A stretch of 64,000 nucleotides of DNA from Aureitalea marina (lineage in GTDB: Bacteria; Bacteroidota; Bacteroidia; Flavobacteriales; Flavobacteriaceae), in contig NZ_MQUB01000001.1 of assembly GCF_002943755.1 (NCBI RefSeq), positions 372,001 through 436,000 on the forward strand, given 5' to 3'. Below are positions 49,692-56,091 of this stretch, in pieces; position 1 is the stretch's first letter, and each line of letters opens with the position of its first letter. The notes below the pieces were generated by a model that was not told where the DNA came from, searched no databases, and saw only the letters and a list, made by a program, of their open reading frames with translations. The position numbers were made by a program, and so were the translations under genes.

Positions 49692-51302
49692 ATGAAAAGA
49701 ATGTTGTTAAGCGCGGCGGCCCTTATGACCGGCGCGCTAATGTTCGGACAATTTAACGGCAGTGCTGTCTTGCAGCTAGGTGTCGGGAATGGCTCGAACG
49801 TAAATCAAGTGGGTGCAGTCAATGGATCCCTGGTTACGCAAATCGGAGCCTTTAATGGTTCTGACGTGGACCAGTTTGGTACTGGAAACGGATCTCAAGT
49901 AGGTCAGTTTGGAATCGCCAACGGTTCTCAAGTGCTTCAAATCGGAGGCTTTAACGGTTCTTCCGTTAATCAGTTTGGTATTGAGAACGGATCCTTCGTT
50001 TATCAAGATGGTGGTTTCAATGGTTCTGACGTTGATCAAGTAGGTCGTCGTAACGGATCTTTTGTATACCAAGACGGAGGTTTCAATGGTTCTGATGTAT
50101 ACCAATTAGGACGTCGTAACGGATCAGCTGTTGTACAACTAGGTTCCTTCAACGGATCAGATGTAAATCAGTTTGGTCGTCGTAACGGACAGTACACTAT
50201 CCAACAAGGTTCCTTCAACGGATCCTATGTTGAGCAGTGGGGACGTCGTAACGGATCTATCGTAAATCAGGACGGGAGCTTTAACGGATCTTATGTAGGT
50301 CAGTTTGGTCGTGCTAACGGATCTCGCGTAGAGCAAGATGGAACTGGCAACGGTTCTGCTGTTATCCAGATCGGACGTCGTAACGGTTCGGAAGTTATCC
50401 AGGATGGATCATCGAATGGATCTTTGGTATACCAACAAGGACGCGCTAACGGATCTTACGTATACCAGGAAGGAACTGCTAACGGTTCTTTAGTTGTTCA
50501 ACTAGGACGTCGTAACGGATCTTTTGTGTACCAAGATGGTGACTATAATGGATCTGATGTTTACCAAGAAGGACGCGCTAATGGATCAGCTGTTGTACAA
50601 CTAGGTGACTACAACGGATCTGATGTTAACCAATTCGGTCGTCGTAACGGACAGTACACTATCCAACAAGGAACTTACAATGGTTCTTACGTTCTTCAAA
50701 TTGGACGTCGTAATGGATCTATCGTTAACCAGGATGGTGACTTTAACGGTTCTTATGTAGGTCAAGGTGGGAGAGCTAATGGTTCTCGCGTAGAGCAAGA
50801 TGGTCTTGCCAACGGATCTTTCGTAGGTCAACTAGGCCGTCGTAACGGATCAGAAGTTGAGCAAACTGGTGAAACTAACGGATCTCTGGTTCTTCAAGCT
50901 GGAATTGAGAATGGTCAGTACACTGGTCAACTAGGTCTTTCTAATGGATCAGCTACATTGCAAGCTGGAGCTGGTAACGGTTCTGCTACTATCCAAATTG
51001 GTGCTTTCAACGGAAGCTTGACTGCTCAGTTAGGTGTTGGTAACGGGAGTTTCACTGGTCAACTAGGTGTTGCTAACGGTGCTGCTACTTTCCAAGCTGG
51101 AGCTGGAAACGGATCTATTACACTGCAAGCTGGTTTGGCGAACGGAAGTTTAGTTCTTCAGAACGGAACTGCTAACGGTTCTCTTGTTGGACAACTGGGT
51201 GCCTTTAACGGTAGCTACGTTCAGCAAACTGGACTGGGTCACGGTAGCTTGGTTCTTCAAGCTGGAATCGGAAACGGTTCTATCGTAACGCAGAGCAACT
51301 AG
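49692..51302 (+). CDS. Curlin-like fibre subunit with 47 eleven-residue repeats
   Basis: A 536-residue secreted protein, the likely main subunit of a curli-type amyloid fibre. After a 21-residue leader (MKRMLLSAAALMTGALMFGQF) the whole protein is 46 consecutive 11-residue repeats plus a 9-residue 47th, consensus NGSxVxQxGxx, without any insertion or gap. E. coli CsgA has five repeats of about 22 residues, each of two 11-residue strands with Ser, Gln, Gly, Asn and Gln in these positions; here every strand has the same motif. Repeats 10-20 and 24-34 are a duplicated block (offset 14 repeats, 462 bp). Exported by CsgG encoded downstream. Confidence 0.9.
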   Translation: MKRMLLSAAALMTGALMFGQFNGSAVLQLGVGNGSNVNQVGAVNGSLVTQIGAFNGSDVDQFGTGNGSQVGQFGIANGSQVLQIGGFNGSSVNQFGIENGSFVYQDGGFNGSDVDQVGRRNGSFVYQDGGFNGSDVYQLGRRNGSAVVQLGSFNGSDVNQFGRRNGQYTIQQGSFNGSYVEQWGRRNGSIVNQDGSFNGSYVGQFGRANGSRVEQDGTGNGSAVIQIGRRNGSEVIQDGSSNGSLVYQQGRANGSYVYQEGTANGSLVVQLGRRNGSFVYQDGDYNGSDVYQEGRANGSAVVQLGDYNGSDVNQFGRRNGQYTIQQGTYNGSYVLQIGRRNGSIVNQDGDFNGSYVGQGGRANGSRVEQDGLANGSFVGQLGRRNGSEVEQTGETNGSLVLQAGIENGQYTGQLGLSNGSATLQAGAGNGSATIQIGAFNGSLTAQLGVGNGSFTGQLGVANGAATFQAGAGNGSITLQAGLANGSLVLQNGTANGSLVGQLGAFNGSYVQQTGLGHGSLVLQAGIGNGSIVTQSN

Positions 51303-51334
51303 TAATTAGAAGCTCACTGATGTGACTATTATAT

Positions 51335-51363
51335 AGTATAGGGGCTGCGGCCCCTATACTTTT
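51335..51363 (+). terminator. Strong hairpin between the fibre gene and the rest of the operon
   Basis: Perfect 11-bp stem AGTATAGGGGC / GCCCCTATACT around TGCG, followed by only three T. Placed 33 bases after the fibre-gene stop and 40 before the CsgB-like gene. It may be a partial terminator or a 3' stabiliser, either of which would give much more fibre mRNA than assembly-gene mRNA. Confidence 0.8.
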
Positions 51364-51402
51364 CTAAAGACATCTTAACTAACCCTTTGTAATAAACTAG
51401 TC

Positions 51403-51918
51403 ATGAAGAAATTACTAACAACAATGACCGTACTTTCGGTACTGTTCATGGTCGATTTCTCTCAGGCCCAAACCATTGGTCTGGACCAATCCAATAAGAC
51501 GGCACTTACACCTGTTAGACAACAGACCACCAATAGTCAAGCTGTTCAAAGAACGACAAAGCAGGTATATACAACGCGAAAGGTCAATACAACTGTGCAG
51601 CAAGTTGGTAATTACAACCAGGTAAATGTCGATGTTAAGGCATACTCCGGGCAGGTTGGGTTGCATCAATTTGGAAATAAGAACAATATCGCTGTTAATC
51701 TTAGCTCATTAGTGCTGCGTGAGAACGTCCTGCAACAAGGGAATAATCACAATTTTGTACACACTAATATGCGAGCTACGCGCTACCAAAGCGCCACTGT
51801 CATACAGCGCGGTTCCAACCAGAATTTGATCATGCAAGGACAGAACAGGATGTCCAAAAATATGATAGTCAACATGCGAGGTAGGAATCAAACCGTAATT
51901 ATTCGTAACTTTCGCTAA
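51403..51918 (+). CDS. CsgB-like minor curli subunit (nucleator)
   Basis: A 171-residue secreted protein with a signal peptide ending QAQ. After a Thr/Gln-rich linker come five curlin repeats of 22-24 residues, marked by QVGNYN (67), QFGNKN (89), QQGNNHN (111), QRGSNQN (135) and MRGRNQT (158). The last repeats are rich in arginine, as in E. coli CsgB, where the C-terminal repeat is needed to attach the fibre to the cell. Nucleation of the large fibre protein is inferred from the gene order. Confidence 0.82.
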   Translation: MKKLLTTMTVLSVLFMVDFSQAQTIGLDQSNKTALTPVRQQTTNSQAVQRTTKQVYTTRKVNTTVQQVGNYNQVNVDVKAYSGQVGLHQFGNKNNIAVNLSSLVLRENVLQQGNNHNFVHTNMRATRYQSATVIQRGSNQNLIMQGQNRMSKNMIVNMRGRNQTVIIRNFR

Positions 51919-51929
51919 ATTGAAATGCC

Positions 51930-52688
51930 TTGTTGCCGCTCCAAACACATAAGGTCATTAGTTGCCTACTGCTATGCTCCACGCTAGCATTTGGCCAGGT
52001 ATACAATACCGAGGTCGAAGCGAAGATCAATCTTCTAGATAACTCTGAATTCGTTCAGATTGAGGGTTCTGCCATCAATAAGACCCAACTCCCATTTAGT
52101 TTAAGATATATCCTTTCCCTGATCGATAATTCAGGTGAAAACCCTGATAAAAAGGACTATTCAGGACGTTTTATCCTAGGTCCAGGTGAGCAGAAAAATT
52201 TAGATACTCAGACATTTCCTACAAAAAATCAAGGAAAACTCACAATTCTTTTGTTAATTTACAATCTTGAAGATCAGCTGATCGGAATGGATCGGGTCGT
52301 TTTAAATGGGGATGAATCCGATGAAGTTAAACGAATAGTCGTTAACGATAATGCGATCTTTAGTCGTAAGAAGGATGGAGGAGTAAGTATACGCGGAATA
52401 ACTGTAGAAGATACCAAGACCAAATTTGGAAGGGACTTCTATCGATATTTTGCTGATGAATACCGGGCTAACACTGTTAATGGTCTTCACCCGGTGACTG
52501 TCAAAGAGACATTTGCCATTGCAAATACCTCGAAGATTGAATTAATAATAAACAACAATAAACTGCTAGAGTTTATTTTGCCCCCGAAAGACGACGTTAT
52601 CAGATCGTATGCGGCCGAATCCGTTAGGATGGTGTCCAAGTATTTTCGGGATCAAGAACTCAATGCGAACCAAAAAATACGATACTGA
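51930..52688 (+). CDS. csgE: CsgE with an extra N-terminal CsgC/CsgH-like domain
   Basis: A 252-residue periplasmic protein. Residues 1-24 look like a signal peptide. Residues 25-125 form an Ig-like beta sandwich (INLLDNSEFVQIEGSAINK, LGPGEQKNLDTQTF) similar in type to the curli-inhibitor proteins CsgC/CsgH. The C-terminal 115 residues are CsgE, the specificity cap of the CsgG channel: KFGRDFYRYFADEYR, TVKETFAIANTSKIELIINN and PPKDDVIRSYAAE. E. coli CsgE has only the second part. The start is TTG (51930 or 51933), because no ATG is in frame. Overlaps csgF by one base. Confidence 0.85.
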   Translation: MLPLQTHKVISCLLLCSTLAFGQVYNTEVEAKINLLDNSEFVQIEGSAINKTQLPFSLRYILSLIDNSGENPDKKDYSGRFILGPGEQKNLDTQTFPTKNQGKLTILLLIYNLEDQLIGMDRVVLNGDESDEVKRIVVNDNAIFSRKKDGGVSIRGITVEDTKTKFGRDFYRYFADEYRANTVNGLHPVTVKETFAIANTSKIELIINNNKLLEFILPPKDDVIRSYAAESVRMVSKYFRDQELNANQKIRY

Positions 52689-53077
52689 TGAAAACCAGAA
52701 TTTCACTCATAGTACTTTTCTTCTTAGCTGTTGGTTCTTATTCTTATGGACAGCAGTTGGTTTATACTCCCAAGAATCCTGCTTTCGGAGGGGACCCATT
52801 TGCGGGTAACTGGTTACTGAGTGTGGCCAATGCACAAAATCCATTTGATGATGACCAACAAGCCGTACCCGGCTTGGAAAATCTCGGAGCATTGGATCAA
52901 AGCCTGAATAATCAATTACTTGGTCAACTGGGTGGGGGAGATCTAAACGGATTACAATCCGGGACTTCAGCCGACGGGAATTTCGAATTCGAAGTTTTCG
53001 ATTCACTGGATGGCCTTGTTGTCAACATACTGGATCTGCTCTCGGGTGAACAGACCCAGATCGTTATTCCTAACTAG
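52688..53077 (+). CDS. csgF: CsgF, curli assembly factor
   Basis: A 129-residue exported protein. The mature N-terminus, LVYTPKNPAFGGDPFAGNWL followed by LSVANAQNPF, carries the conserved NPxFGGxPxxGxxLLxxAxAQN motif, the segment that in E. coli inserts into the CsgG pore. The C-terminal half is an Asn/Gly/Leu-rich linker and a short beta region. It links CsgB to the exporter. Starts inside the csgE stop codon (TGATG) and is followed by csgG after 13 bases. Confidence 0.93.
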   Translation: MKTRISLIVLFFLAVGSYSYGQQLVYTPKNPAFGGDPFAGNWLLSVANAQNPFDDDQQAVPGLENLGALDQSLNNQLLGQLGGGDLNGLQSGTSADGNFEFEVFDSLDGLVVNILDLLSGEQTQIVIPN

Positions 53078-53090
53078 CACCTCTTAACCT

Positions 53091-54506
53091 ATGGTAAAAA
53101 TCTACAAAACAACCTTATTATTTGCGCTCCCATTTCTACTTTCAGGTTGTGGTGCGTATTGGAACCAACCCACGGGGCCTCAGGATGCAAGGATATCCGA
53201 AATTACCGAGGCAACTAAAGACTTAAGGGAACTACCACCACCGGCGGAGCCGATTGTGGTAGGGGTATACAATTTCAAGGATCAGACTGGTCAGTACAAG
53301 AACCTGGAGAATGTTTCCAGTTTCAGTACTGCCGTTACACAAGGTGCTACGACCATTTTAGTCAAGGCCCTGGAAGACTCTAAATGGTTCAGACCCATTG
53401 AACGGGAAAATCTAAACAACCTTTTAGGAGAACGGAATATCATCCGCAGTACTCGAGACGAGTACAGCGACGCCAACAACCCTCCTCAGCGCTTGAATCC
53501 TCTTTTATTTGCAGGAATGCTCCTTGAAGGAGGTGTGATTTCCTACGATACCAATATCATGACCGGTGGAGTAGGCGCCCGATACTTTGGTGTAGGTGGT
53601 TCTGCTGAATATCGCCAGGATCGTATCACGGTTTATCTTCGAGCCGTTTCCACCAATACTGGTGAGGTTCTAAAAACAGTGAACGTTTCCAAGACCATTT
53701 TATCTCAGGCTGTGGATGTTGGAATATTTCGTTTTGTGAATTTCGAACGTCTGTTGGAAGTAGAAACCGGATTCACCAAGAATGAGCCCACGCAATTGGC
53801 CGTTCAAGAAGCTATCGAACGTGCTGTAGAACTTCTGATCCTGGAAGGTATCAAAGATGACCTCTGGGGTACGCTGGAAGGAGAAGAAAAAGACCAGCAG
53901 CTGGTAGATGCTTACATGGCCGAAAAAGAGTTGGAGGAATCCACTACGCTTTACGAGCGACAGTATCTTCCTCAGGACTTTCGTCATGTTATCACTCCAA
54001 GTTTGGGACTATCCTTGATGGATGGAGATTATGACAGCAGTGTTCTTGATTTCCGAGCAGGTCTTTCCTACAAATACAGATTGTATCCGCATTTTGCGCT
54101 TGGTGCCGATTTTGAGATCTTCAGGCTCAATTCTACCCCGGAAGAAAGAACCTGGTGGCTGAGCCAGACCTTGTTGCTCGATTTTACCATCTTACCGAAC
54201 GATCGTCTCTCACCCAAGGTGTATGGAGGTCCGGGGCTTTTGCTCTATGCCGATGATACGGATACCCAATTCAACAGCAAATGGGATTCCTATTTCCAGC
54301 TGAAGGCTGGTTTAGGTTTGGATTATCGGGTTTCTGATCGGGTATCGTTAGAATTGACAGGAGATTGGAATTTTGCCTTTACAGATCAACTGGATAATCT
54401 CGTTCAGGGTCGAAGAGACGATTATTATATCAACTTCGGTTTTGGTGTCAACTATCAATTTGGAGCCAGAAACAAGAATAAAGAAGCTAACTCAAACAAC
54501 CAATAA
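53091..54506 (+). CDS. csgG: CsgG curli secretion channel with C-terminal beta-barrel-like extension
   Basis: Outer-membrane lipoprotein of 471 residues; E. coli CsgG has 277. The lipobox is LLSGC (Cys20). The channel part follows E. coli closely: VGVYNFKDQTGQYK, SSFSTAVTQGATTILVKALE and WFRPIERENLNNLLGERNII. In the constriction, Phe56 is kept, while Asn55 becomes Ser and Tyr51 is not conserved. From about residue 300 an added domain of alternating strands (YKYRLYPHFALGADFEIFRL, YYINFGFGVNYQFG) looks like an eight-strand barrel. Stop and next start overlap (TAATG). Confidence 0.92.
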   Translation: MVKIYKTTLLFALPFLLSGCGAYWNQPTGPQDARISEITEATKDLRELPPPAEPIVVGVYNFKDQTGQYKNLENVSSFSTAVTQGATTILVKALEDSKWFRPIERENLNNLLGERNIIRSTRDEYSDANNPPQRLNPLLFAGMLLEGGVISYDTNIMTGGVGARYFGVGGSAEYRQDRITVYLRAVSTNTGEVLKTVNVSKTILSQAVDVGIFRFVNFERLLEVETGFTKNEPTQLAVQEAIERAVELLILEGIKDDLWGTLEGEEKDQQLVDAYMAEKELEESTTLYERQYLPQDFRHVITPSLGLSLMDGDYDSSVLDFRAGLSYKYRLYPHFALGADFEIFRLNSTPEERTWWLSQTLLLDFTILPNDRLSPKVYGGPGLLLYADDTDTQFNSKWDSYFQLKAGLGLDYRVSDRVSLELTGDWNFAFTDQLDNLVQGRRDDYYINFGFGVNYQFGARNKNKEANSNNQ

Positions 54507-56026
54507 TGAAGACAATGATGGATAAGAAAACCTACTTGATGTGGACGAGCGTCCTCTTGTTGATCTTTACCTTTTCTTGTAACGAAGACAGAGTAAGTGA
54601 GAATCAAATTGGAAATTTACGAGGAAAAGTGGTCGAAGCGGGATCCAATACCCCGATACCTAATGCAAAGATCTCTACTAATCCTACTTCTAATACTGTC
54701 TTTACGGATAGTTCAGGAAACTACGAGATGAATGAGATTCCGGTGAATGATTATGTGGTCACTGCCGAAAGCGAACTTTATATAACCACCGCTCAACCAG
54801 CTACGGTGACTGGAAACAGCACCACCCAGGTTGTTTTTGAGCTAGAACGATCTACGACCAATAACAGGCCGCCTACGGCACCTCAGCTTAATTCTCCATC
54901 TCAGAATGAGTTGATCTCTGGTATTGAAGTGGTATTCAAATGGTCTTCCTCAGATCCTGAAGAAGATCCTATCACTTACACTTTAGAACTCAGAAATGAT
55001 GCGAATAACGATGTTTTGTTGTTTGAGGATTTGAGCAATGATTCCTTAGTGTATTCAGAATTGATGATGGATACCAAATATTTCTGGCAAGTTTCTGCCA
55101 ATGACGGAATCAATACCCAATCTGTTCTCAGTCCAGTAGGAACCTTTACCGTAGATGGACCGCCAGTGGATAACCGTTTCTTTTTCACAAGGACCGTAAA
55201 TGGCAACAATGTCATTTTCTCTGCCGACGAAAGTGGTAACGAATTTCAACTTACCCCAAGCGACAGGAATAGCTATCGTCCTAAATTGAACGTTGCTGCT
55301 AATTTGATCGCTTTCTTAAGAACGAATGGAGCAGACGCAGATATATATACGATGGAACGTGATGGTAGCAATGTCCGCCGTGTTACCAATACCGTGAAGC
55401 CAAGTGGTTTCGATCCAAATGAGATCAGTTTTGCTTGGCCGACGGATAGTGATATGATCTACTACCCGGAATTCGAACGACTCTGGCGAATCAATAGCAA
55501 CGGGCAAGGACGTGAATTGGTTTACAAAATTGAAGACGGGCGCTTCATCTCTGAAGTCGATATTAATGAAACTTTGGATTTAATAGCGATCAAAGTGAAT
55601 GATCAACGTGGATATGATATCGGTATTTACTTAACAGATATGTCAGGTGTGGTCAGTGACACTGTTATTGACAATGTTTCGGGAGCTGCAAACAGTGTTA
55701 GCTTGTCAGCTACCAACAACACCTTAGTTTATACCTACGATGTATCTGGACAAGAAAATCCTGGTTACCGTCGATTCGATTCCAGAATCTTCATTTATGA
55801 CAGAACTGATCAATCAACTACTGATATCTCTGGAGAAAAACCAGATGGGACCAATGATATTCAAGCCTTCTTCTCTCCAAACGAAGCTTTCGTAATATTT
55901 ACGAATACTTCCAACGACGGACGTTCAAGACGTGATGTTTTCGAGGTCAATGTGGTGGGTGATGAGGACGGCGGACGTACCAGAACCATGTTGTTTATGG
56001 ATGCCTTTATGGCGTTCTGGAAATAG
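54506..56026 (+). CDS. Multi-domain lipoprotein closing the curli operon
   Basis: A 506-residue lipoprotein (lipobox FTFSC). Domains in order: a carboxypeptidase-regulatory-like Ig fold (LRGKVVEAGSNTPIPNAKIS), a fibronectin III-like domain (RPPTAPQLNSPSQNELISG to about residue 215), and a TolB/PD40-like beta-propeller from about 220 to the end (NVIFSADESGNEFQLTPSD, ADIYTMERDGSNVRRVTN). It is joined to csgG by a one-base overlap and followed by the operon terminator, so it belongs to the curli transcript. It has no counterpart in the E. coli csg operons; a role in anchoring, gating or fibre quality control is a guess. Confidence 0.8.
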   Translation: MKTMMDKKTYLMWTSVLLLIFTFSCNEDRVSENQIGNLRGKVVEAGSNTPIPNAKISTNPTSNTVFTDSSGNYEMNEIPVNDYVVTAESELYITTAQPATVTGNSTTQVVFELERSTTNNRPPTAPQLNSPSQNELISGIEVVFKWSSSDPEEDPITYTLELRNDANNDVLLFEDLSNDSLVYSELMMDTKYFWQVSANDGINTQSVLSPVGTFTVDGPPVDNRFFFTRTVNGNNVIFSADESGNEFQLTPSDRNSYRPKLNVAANLIAFLRTNGADADIYTMERDGSNVRRVTNTVKPSGFDPNEISFAWPTDSDMIYYPEFERLWRINSNGQGRELVYKIEDGRFISEVDINETLDLIAIKVNDQRGYDIGIYLTDMSGVVSDTVIDNVSGAANSVSLSATNNTLVYTYDVSGQENPGYRRFDSRIFIYDRTDQSTTDISGEKPDGTNDIQAFFSPNEAFVIFTNTSNDGRSRRDVFEVNVVGDEDGGRTRTMLFMDAFMAFWK

Positions 56027-56052
56027 CGAATTCTAATTAGATATTAGTGAAG

Positions 56053-56083
56053 ACCTCATGGGAAACCATGAGGTTTTCTTTTT
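56053..56083 (+). terminator. Terminator of the curli operon with GAAA tetraloop
   Basis: Perfect 9-bp stem ACCTCATGG / CCATGAGGT closed by the very stable GAAA tetraloop, followed by a T-rich tract. The -7 box of purM starts immediately after. Confidence 0.93.
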
Positions 56084-56091
56084 TACCTTTG
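56084..56091 (+). promoter_or_regulatory. -7 box of purM, very close to its start codon
   Basis: TACCTTTG matches TAnnTTTG and ends only 5 bases before ATG 56097. Transcription starting about 7 bases downstream of such a box would give a leaderless or nearly leaderless mRNA. Confidence 0.55.

Follow-up and report, generated by a model that had tools for sequence, protein, structure and literature searches.

Introduction

The curli of E. coli, encoded by csgBAC and csgDEFG, are among the closest known relatives of the locus described here. In that system, the CsgE nonamer caps the CsgG nonamer (PMC7304575), and CsgG was reported to assemble without BamA in the title of a paper cited in PMC12611786. 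The chaperones CsgC and CsgH (PMC4838910, PMC5135000) are seven-stranded sandwiches found in curli loci and are ∼2 pI units more basic than the curlin, which is an average trend and no criterion of membership (PMC4838910). In the main-text passages of Dueholm 2012, csgC was reported to be absent from Bacteroidetes, and the clusters of this phylum comprised csgA/B, csgE, csgF and csgG with no separate csgC or csgD (PMC3521004). A CsgH subfamily was also reported in Bacteroidetes (PMC4838910).

We analysed a window of 64,000 nucleotides from Aureitalea marina, a member of Flavobacteriaceae. Its curli locus shares curlin repeats, a CsgB-like partner, CsgE, the CsgF N-terminus and the CsgG core with E. 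coli, and the same genes with the clusters of Dueholm 2012 (PMC3521004). Unlike in E. coli, the genes form a single-direction operon with no adjacent csgD, a CsgC/H domain is fused to CsgE, CsgG has an extra barrel and an additional lipoprotein is encoded. In the main-text passages of Dueholm 2012, the supplement aside, the fusion, the barrel and the lipoprotein are unmentioned. We put at roughly 80% the probability that this operon encodes a curli (type VIII secretion) system in the version found across Flavobacteriaceae and that it works as proposed in the Discussion.

Results

Six genes constitute the curli operon

The six ORFs were all found on the + strand in one direction between 49,692 and 56,026 (Table 1), in the order given by the initial annotation. 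That annotation had most of the genes overlapping by one base, which is true for two of the five junctions (csgE/csgF and csgG/lipoprotein), the other three being gaps of 100, 11 and 13 bases. The identity of the curlin repeats, CsgE, CsgF and CsgG, which it had recognised from residues shared with E. coli, was borne out by a profile check in which all four Pfam families were matched far beyond chance. The Curlin_rpt match covered 14 stretches of the fibre subunit; CsgE was matched at 3.4e-14 (residues 154–247), CsgF at 4e-23 and CsgG at 2.9e-66 (residues 49–259). Furthermore, CsgG matched the PDB CsgG profile at 5e-87 over positions 7–278, and CsgF aligned to the CsgF of 6l7a at 5.5e-8 with the CsgG-binding N-terminus included.

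Table 1. Positions in the window of the genes, domains and signals of the curli locus.
Feature	Position	Strand	Description and basis
csgA-like, major fibre subunit	49692..51302	+	536 aa; signal peptide and 11-residue half-repeats; Curlin_rpt 5e-18 (Pfam)
Terminator-like hairpin between fibre gene and csgB	51335..51365	+	GTATAGGGGC-TGCG-GCCCCTATAC, TTTTCT tail
csgB-like minor curlin, probable nucleator	51403..51918	+	171 aa; basic C-terminus; orthologs in nearly all loci
csgE with N-terminal CsgC/CsgH-like domain	51930..52688	+	252 aa; TTG start assumed; Pfam and fold model
CsgC/CsgH-like chaperone domain of CsgE	52008..52319	+	about residues 27–130; fold and ortholog profiles
CsgE domain proper	52374..52685	+	about residues 149–252; fold match to 2na4
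csgF	52688..53077	+	129 aa; Pfam; conserved, CsgG-binding N-terminus NPxFGGxPxxG
csgG, secretion channel (a lipoprotein) bearing an additional C-terminal barrel	53091..54506	+	471 aa; Pfam, PDB profile
Predicted OmpA-like eight-stranded barrel of CsgG	53985..54461	+	residues 299–457; predicted strands, fold matches
Sixth gene, lipoprotein	54506..56026	+	506 aa; lipobox FSC|NED; CarboxypepD_reg, Fn3, TolB-like propeller
Terminator-like hairpin at operon end	56049..56084	+	13 bp stem, T run

No csgD was found between the genes flanking the operon; CsgD is a member of a very large regulator family. An Rfam search of the operon gave no match at the gathering score. Sigma-70 promoter matches were dropped as evidence because their frequency was no higher than in shuffled sequence. 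The hairpin at the operon end and the nominal start of the following ORF overlap; this ORF is AIR-synthase-like (purM-like), and its true start is probably further downstream. A hairpin in the csgA-csgB gap was detected in 70 of 121 family loci and in 1 of 121 shuffled ones, with the sets overlapping and the loci not all independent. Its position after the last csgA would fit a fibre subunit made in excess of the machinery.

The extra parts are the standard of Flavobacteriaceae

CsgE was found in 85 of the 397 sampled genomes of the family, in open frames of ∼240–300 aa; the exceptions are a pair near 400 aa and one frame at the end of a contig. The neighbourhood survey covered 60 fetched loci and 79 named ones (Altibacter, Aequorivita, Maribacter, Aquimarina, Flavobacterium and others); these 139 overlap and yield ∼120 distinct sequences per gene. 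The fetched loci all contained csgE, csgF, csgG and the lipoprotein gene (60/60), and the named loci all contained the first three (79/79) and in 77 cases the lipoprotein as well. By domain profiles, 142 CsgE proteins consisted of the N-domain and CsgE, 143 CsgG proteins of the core and the barrel, and 139 lipoproteins had all three domains. Most family loci lie between glnA (glutamine synthetase) upstream and a purM-like gene downstream. In one of them (L081), the whole set csgA-csgB-csgE-csgF-csgG-lipoprotein occurs twice in tandem between these two genes and each copy has its own lipoprotein, which speaks for the six genes as one unit.

The initial annotation had placed the novelty in the set of extra parts, and this did not survive the survey, as all three are family-wide across the 139 loci. 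Thus, what it called non-standard parts are the standard of Flavobacteriaceae. The reading that they are peculiar to this genome and create a new anchoring route could draw on their absence from E. coli curli, where the CsgG chains of known structure stop at about residue 285 and have no barrel. It is nevertheless highly improbable, given that the three parts occur in essentially every fetched Flavobacteriaceae locus and that most of the curli loci examined from other Bacteroidota have the barrel and a lipoprotein bearing CarboxypepD_reg (CPD).

The fibre subunit has a near-perfect repeat of its own

After the signal peptide, the fibre subunit contains 46 half-repeats NG[S/Q/A]x[V/T]xQxG at a spacing of exactly 11 residues and one last degenerate copy, making 47 in all as against about ten in E. 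coli CsgA. Arg-Arg or Arg-Ala precedes many of the even-numbered half-repeats and Phe or Tyr many of the odd-numbered ones. Of the 181 family curlin ORFs compared, no other has NG[SQAT] in over half of its repeats, NDS being more frequent than this type in the relatives. The window's fibre subunit carries a net charge of −1.2 per 100 residues compared with a median of −8.6 for the family curlin ORFs. The near-perfect NGS repeat is therefore a peculiarity of the window itself, which the initial annotation had overlooked. Our guess is that a glycine ladder would here replace an acidic one and act as a brake on premature aggregation. The genome also has a second curlin-repeat ORF of 185 aa (L244, 7217–7774) far from the csg operon; it adjoins a secreted metalloprotease-like gene, and csgE, csgF and csgG were not seen alongside.

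The CsgB-like protein had no match in the Pfam search. Its ortholog lies directly 5′ of csgE in nearly all family loci and usually has three QxGxxN motifs, and the mean net charge of the last 30 residues is +2.2 for CsgB-like proteins versus −1.1 for csgA products. In three loci (L050, L054 and L045), no csgB-like gene was found by similarity and 600–700 bases separate the last csgA from csgE, a gap whose size suggests that it may hold a diverged csgB.

CsgE carries a predicted CsgC/CsgH chaperone domain

The added domain that the initial annotation had reported on CsgE is real, as judged from a seven-strand fold model and ortholog profiles. AlphaFold2 with 65 orthologs predicted seven strands at residues 29–125 and the CsgE fold at 158–246, connected by a disordered linker. 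When aligned with VIA-align, the N-domain gave Z 11.6 with CsgC (2xsk; 95 residues, 3.0 Å) and Z 10.7 with CsgH (2n59), and the second domain gave Z 11.5 with CsgE (2na4) over residues 149–250. Ig-like domains of GH2 enzymes and transglutaminases fit the fold of the N-domain equally well or better. Because the fold alone fits such unrelated Ig domains, the assignment to CsgC/CsgH rests also on sequence profiles and gene context.

The CsgH profile matched 54 of the 65 CsgE orthologs, the best at 5.3e-12, and the CsgC profile matched 28. The window's own domain matched the CsgH profile NF041112 (NCBIfam) weakly (12.6 bits where the cut-off is 35, at an E of 0.11) and, going by its orthologs, is a divergent member. 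It thus resembles the described chaperones (PMC4838910, PMC5135000) in its predicted seven-stranded sandwich, in the profile similarity of its orthologs and in belonging to a curli locus, and differs from them in being fused to CsgE, acidic and below the family cut-off. In two other Bacteroidota families, a free-standing CsgH ORF lies between the curlins and the lipoprotein (L205, L210, L216, L222 and L226) and exceeds the curated cut-off, with a best value of 5.6e-17. A further family within the order has the CsgH-CsgE fusion as well (L213, L215, L218 and L224). In another Bacteroidota lineage (L207, L209, L211, L214 and L221), CsgE has an N-terminal LysM (Pfam, up to 1.7e-12) where CsgH would be, which suggests that CsgE serves as a hub on which N-terminal domains are exchanged.

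The N-domain might instead be a generic Ig-like spacer or a CsgG-binding module that inhibits no amyloid; the fit of the enzyme Ig domains, the acidic nature of the window's copy and the LysM lineages, where the N-terminal position tolerates other domains, would agree with this. We consider it improbable in view of the CsgH and CsgC profile matches across the CsgE orthologs and the CsgH homologs that stand by themselves in the curli loci of other families. These profiles together with the fold model indicate that the extra domain is a CsgC/CsgH chaperone and that csgC is fused rather than missing. When a separate csgC/csgH was searched by profile elsewhere in the genome, the CsgE N-domain alone was returned, weakly. 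The claim that the operon lacks a separate csgC is thus literally correct and yet misleading, since CsgE carries that domain.

The pI of the CsgH-like domain in the window is 4.6 against 4.9 for the curlin, so here the domain is not the more basic one; it was more basic than the curlin in 106 of 112 loci, by more than 2 units in 25. Charge complementarity between this domain and the fibre was rejected for want of covariation over the 112 loci (rho 0.04). The charge of the CsgE domain gave rho −0.23 with that of the fibre in the same loci (p 0.015, uncorrected for relatedness and multiple tests). Two genomes from a single genus, probably Flavobacterium, have csgE interrupted at the linker between the CsgH and CsgE parts (L237, 7479–8300, + strand; L238, 8428–9158, − strand), where a shared run of ten A shifts the well-conserved CsgE half to another frame. 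This run is a possible slippage site giving CsgH alone as well as the fusion.

CsgG ends in a predicted OmpA-like barrel

The barrel-like domain noted on CsgG also proved real: the eight strands were predicted with pLDDT near 90, and in Foldseek the tail matched OmpA (1qjp, TMt 0.82) and NspA (1p4t, TMt 0.80) and the core matched CsgG, although the pore-forming core was poorly modelled as a monomer. Pfam OMP_b-brl was found in 48 of 59 CsgG orthologs at E ≤ 0.01, and the barrel signal of the window copy (residues 320–457) scored 28.6 against a cut-off of 28.7. The domain is like the OmpA/NspA barrels in strand number, fold and, for most orthologs, Pfam family, and unlike them in forming the C-terminal part of a protein with a CsgG core. 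In the phylum sample, it is absent from the CsgG of one family (L231, L233 and L234). A search for a second CsgG in the genome found none.

The barrel is far more variable than the CsgG core, with a mean entropy of 2.18 versus 0.68, as might be expected if it were a membrane anchor or assembly aid only, making no contact with the fibre, CsgF or the lipoprotein. This is a serious alternative, to which we give somewhat less than even odds. Against it, residues 430–444 are conserved with D432, G440 and D444 invariant, which an inert anchor would not need. By strand counting on the model, these residues would form the long last outer loop, a candidate docking site. As the E. coli channel reportedly needs no BamA for its assembly (title cited in PMC12611786), a fused OmpA-like barrel would predict a different requirement here.

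The sixth gene encodes a lipoprotein with a surface-export-type signal

The propeller lipoprotein, the third extra part in the initial annotation, was confirmed by Pfam matches to CPD (8e-12) and Fn3 and by a PDB match of the propeller to TolB (2.5e-11). Its domain types are those of known TolB-propeller and CPD/Fn3 lipoproteins, but the present combination travels with csgEFG and has a surface-export-type signal. In other families, the locus encodes a shorter version that has CPD alone or CPD and Fn3.

Signals for the surface export of lipoproteins are known from work on Capnocytophaga canimorsus, and those of Flavobacterium johnsoniae were derived as well (PMC5080379). The Cys of the window lipobox is followed by a polar residue and then an acidic pair (CNED), fitting that rule. 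Of the 85 orthologs whose lipobox is readable, 79 have E at +3 and 81 have D/E at +4, and no CsgG ortholog has acidic residues at these positions. The resemblance of these residues to the export signal makes surface exposure of the lipoprotein likely. The propeller does resemble periplasmic TolB, and the protein could accordingly be a periplasm-facing helper akin to TolB in role and no surface anchor; we regard this as rather unlikely because the acidic residues right after the lipid-bearing Cys, kept in about 80 of 85 orthologs and absent from CsgG, are those of surface-exported Bacteroidetes lipoproteins (PMC5080379).

Discussion

The gene set, the domain identities and their conservation, as established by sequence profiles and predicted models, describe a curli system with three extra parts. 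We propose that the very long, regular curlin and the CsgB-like nucleator would enter the periplasm by Sec, where the CsgC/H domain of the CsgH-CsgE fusion would keep the curlins unfolded. The CsgE domain of the fusion would cap the CsgG channel and, if the nonamer geometry of E. coli is carried over by analogy, about nine anti-amyloid domains would be placed at the channel entrance. CsgG would export the chains, and the OmpA-like barrel of each subunit would be embedded in the outer membrane next to the main pore. At the cell surface, the growing fibre would be held or organised by CsgF and by the surface lipoprotein with its CPD, Fn3 and propeller domains. Amyloid formation, the ring geometry, the position of the barrel, the surface exposure and the anchoring by the lipoprotein are in this proposal inferred from the genes. 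A role of the barrel and the lipoprotein in anchoring or control, as the initial annotation had suggested, is plausible from the conserved outer loop, the surface-export-type signal and the gene neighbourhood.

A wider proposal is more tentative and, in our estimate, has well under an even chance: that Bacteroidota have a distinct curli machine, in which the CsgG nonamer would be ringed by nine OmpA-like barrels and possibly be BAM-dependent, unlike in E. coli, with a CsgH-CsgE ring in this family, a dedicated surface lipoprotein and, in another lineage, the swap of CsgH for a LysM that binds peptidoglycan.

In the literature within reach, main texts with few subscription papers among them, we found neither the fusion nor the barrel nor the lipoprotein described. 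The extra parts are real, conserved and, as far as this literature goes, largely undescribed, which hints at novelty. The 'missing' CsgC of Flavobacteriaceae curli would be located on CsgE, and an anti-amyloid chaperone would thereby be physically tied to the secretion gate. Two elements lacking in textbook curli, the conserved sixth protein and the barrel of CsgG, can now be named, and the three extra parts together bear on how biofilm amyloid may be anchored in Bacteroidota.
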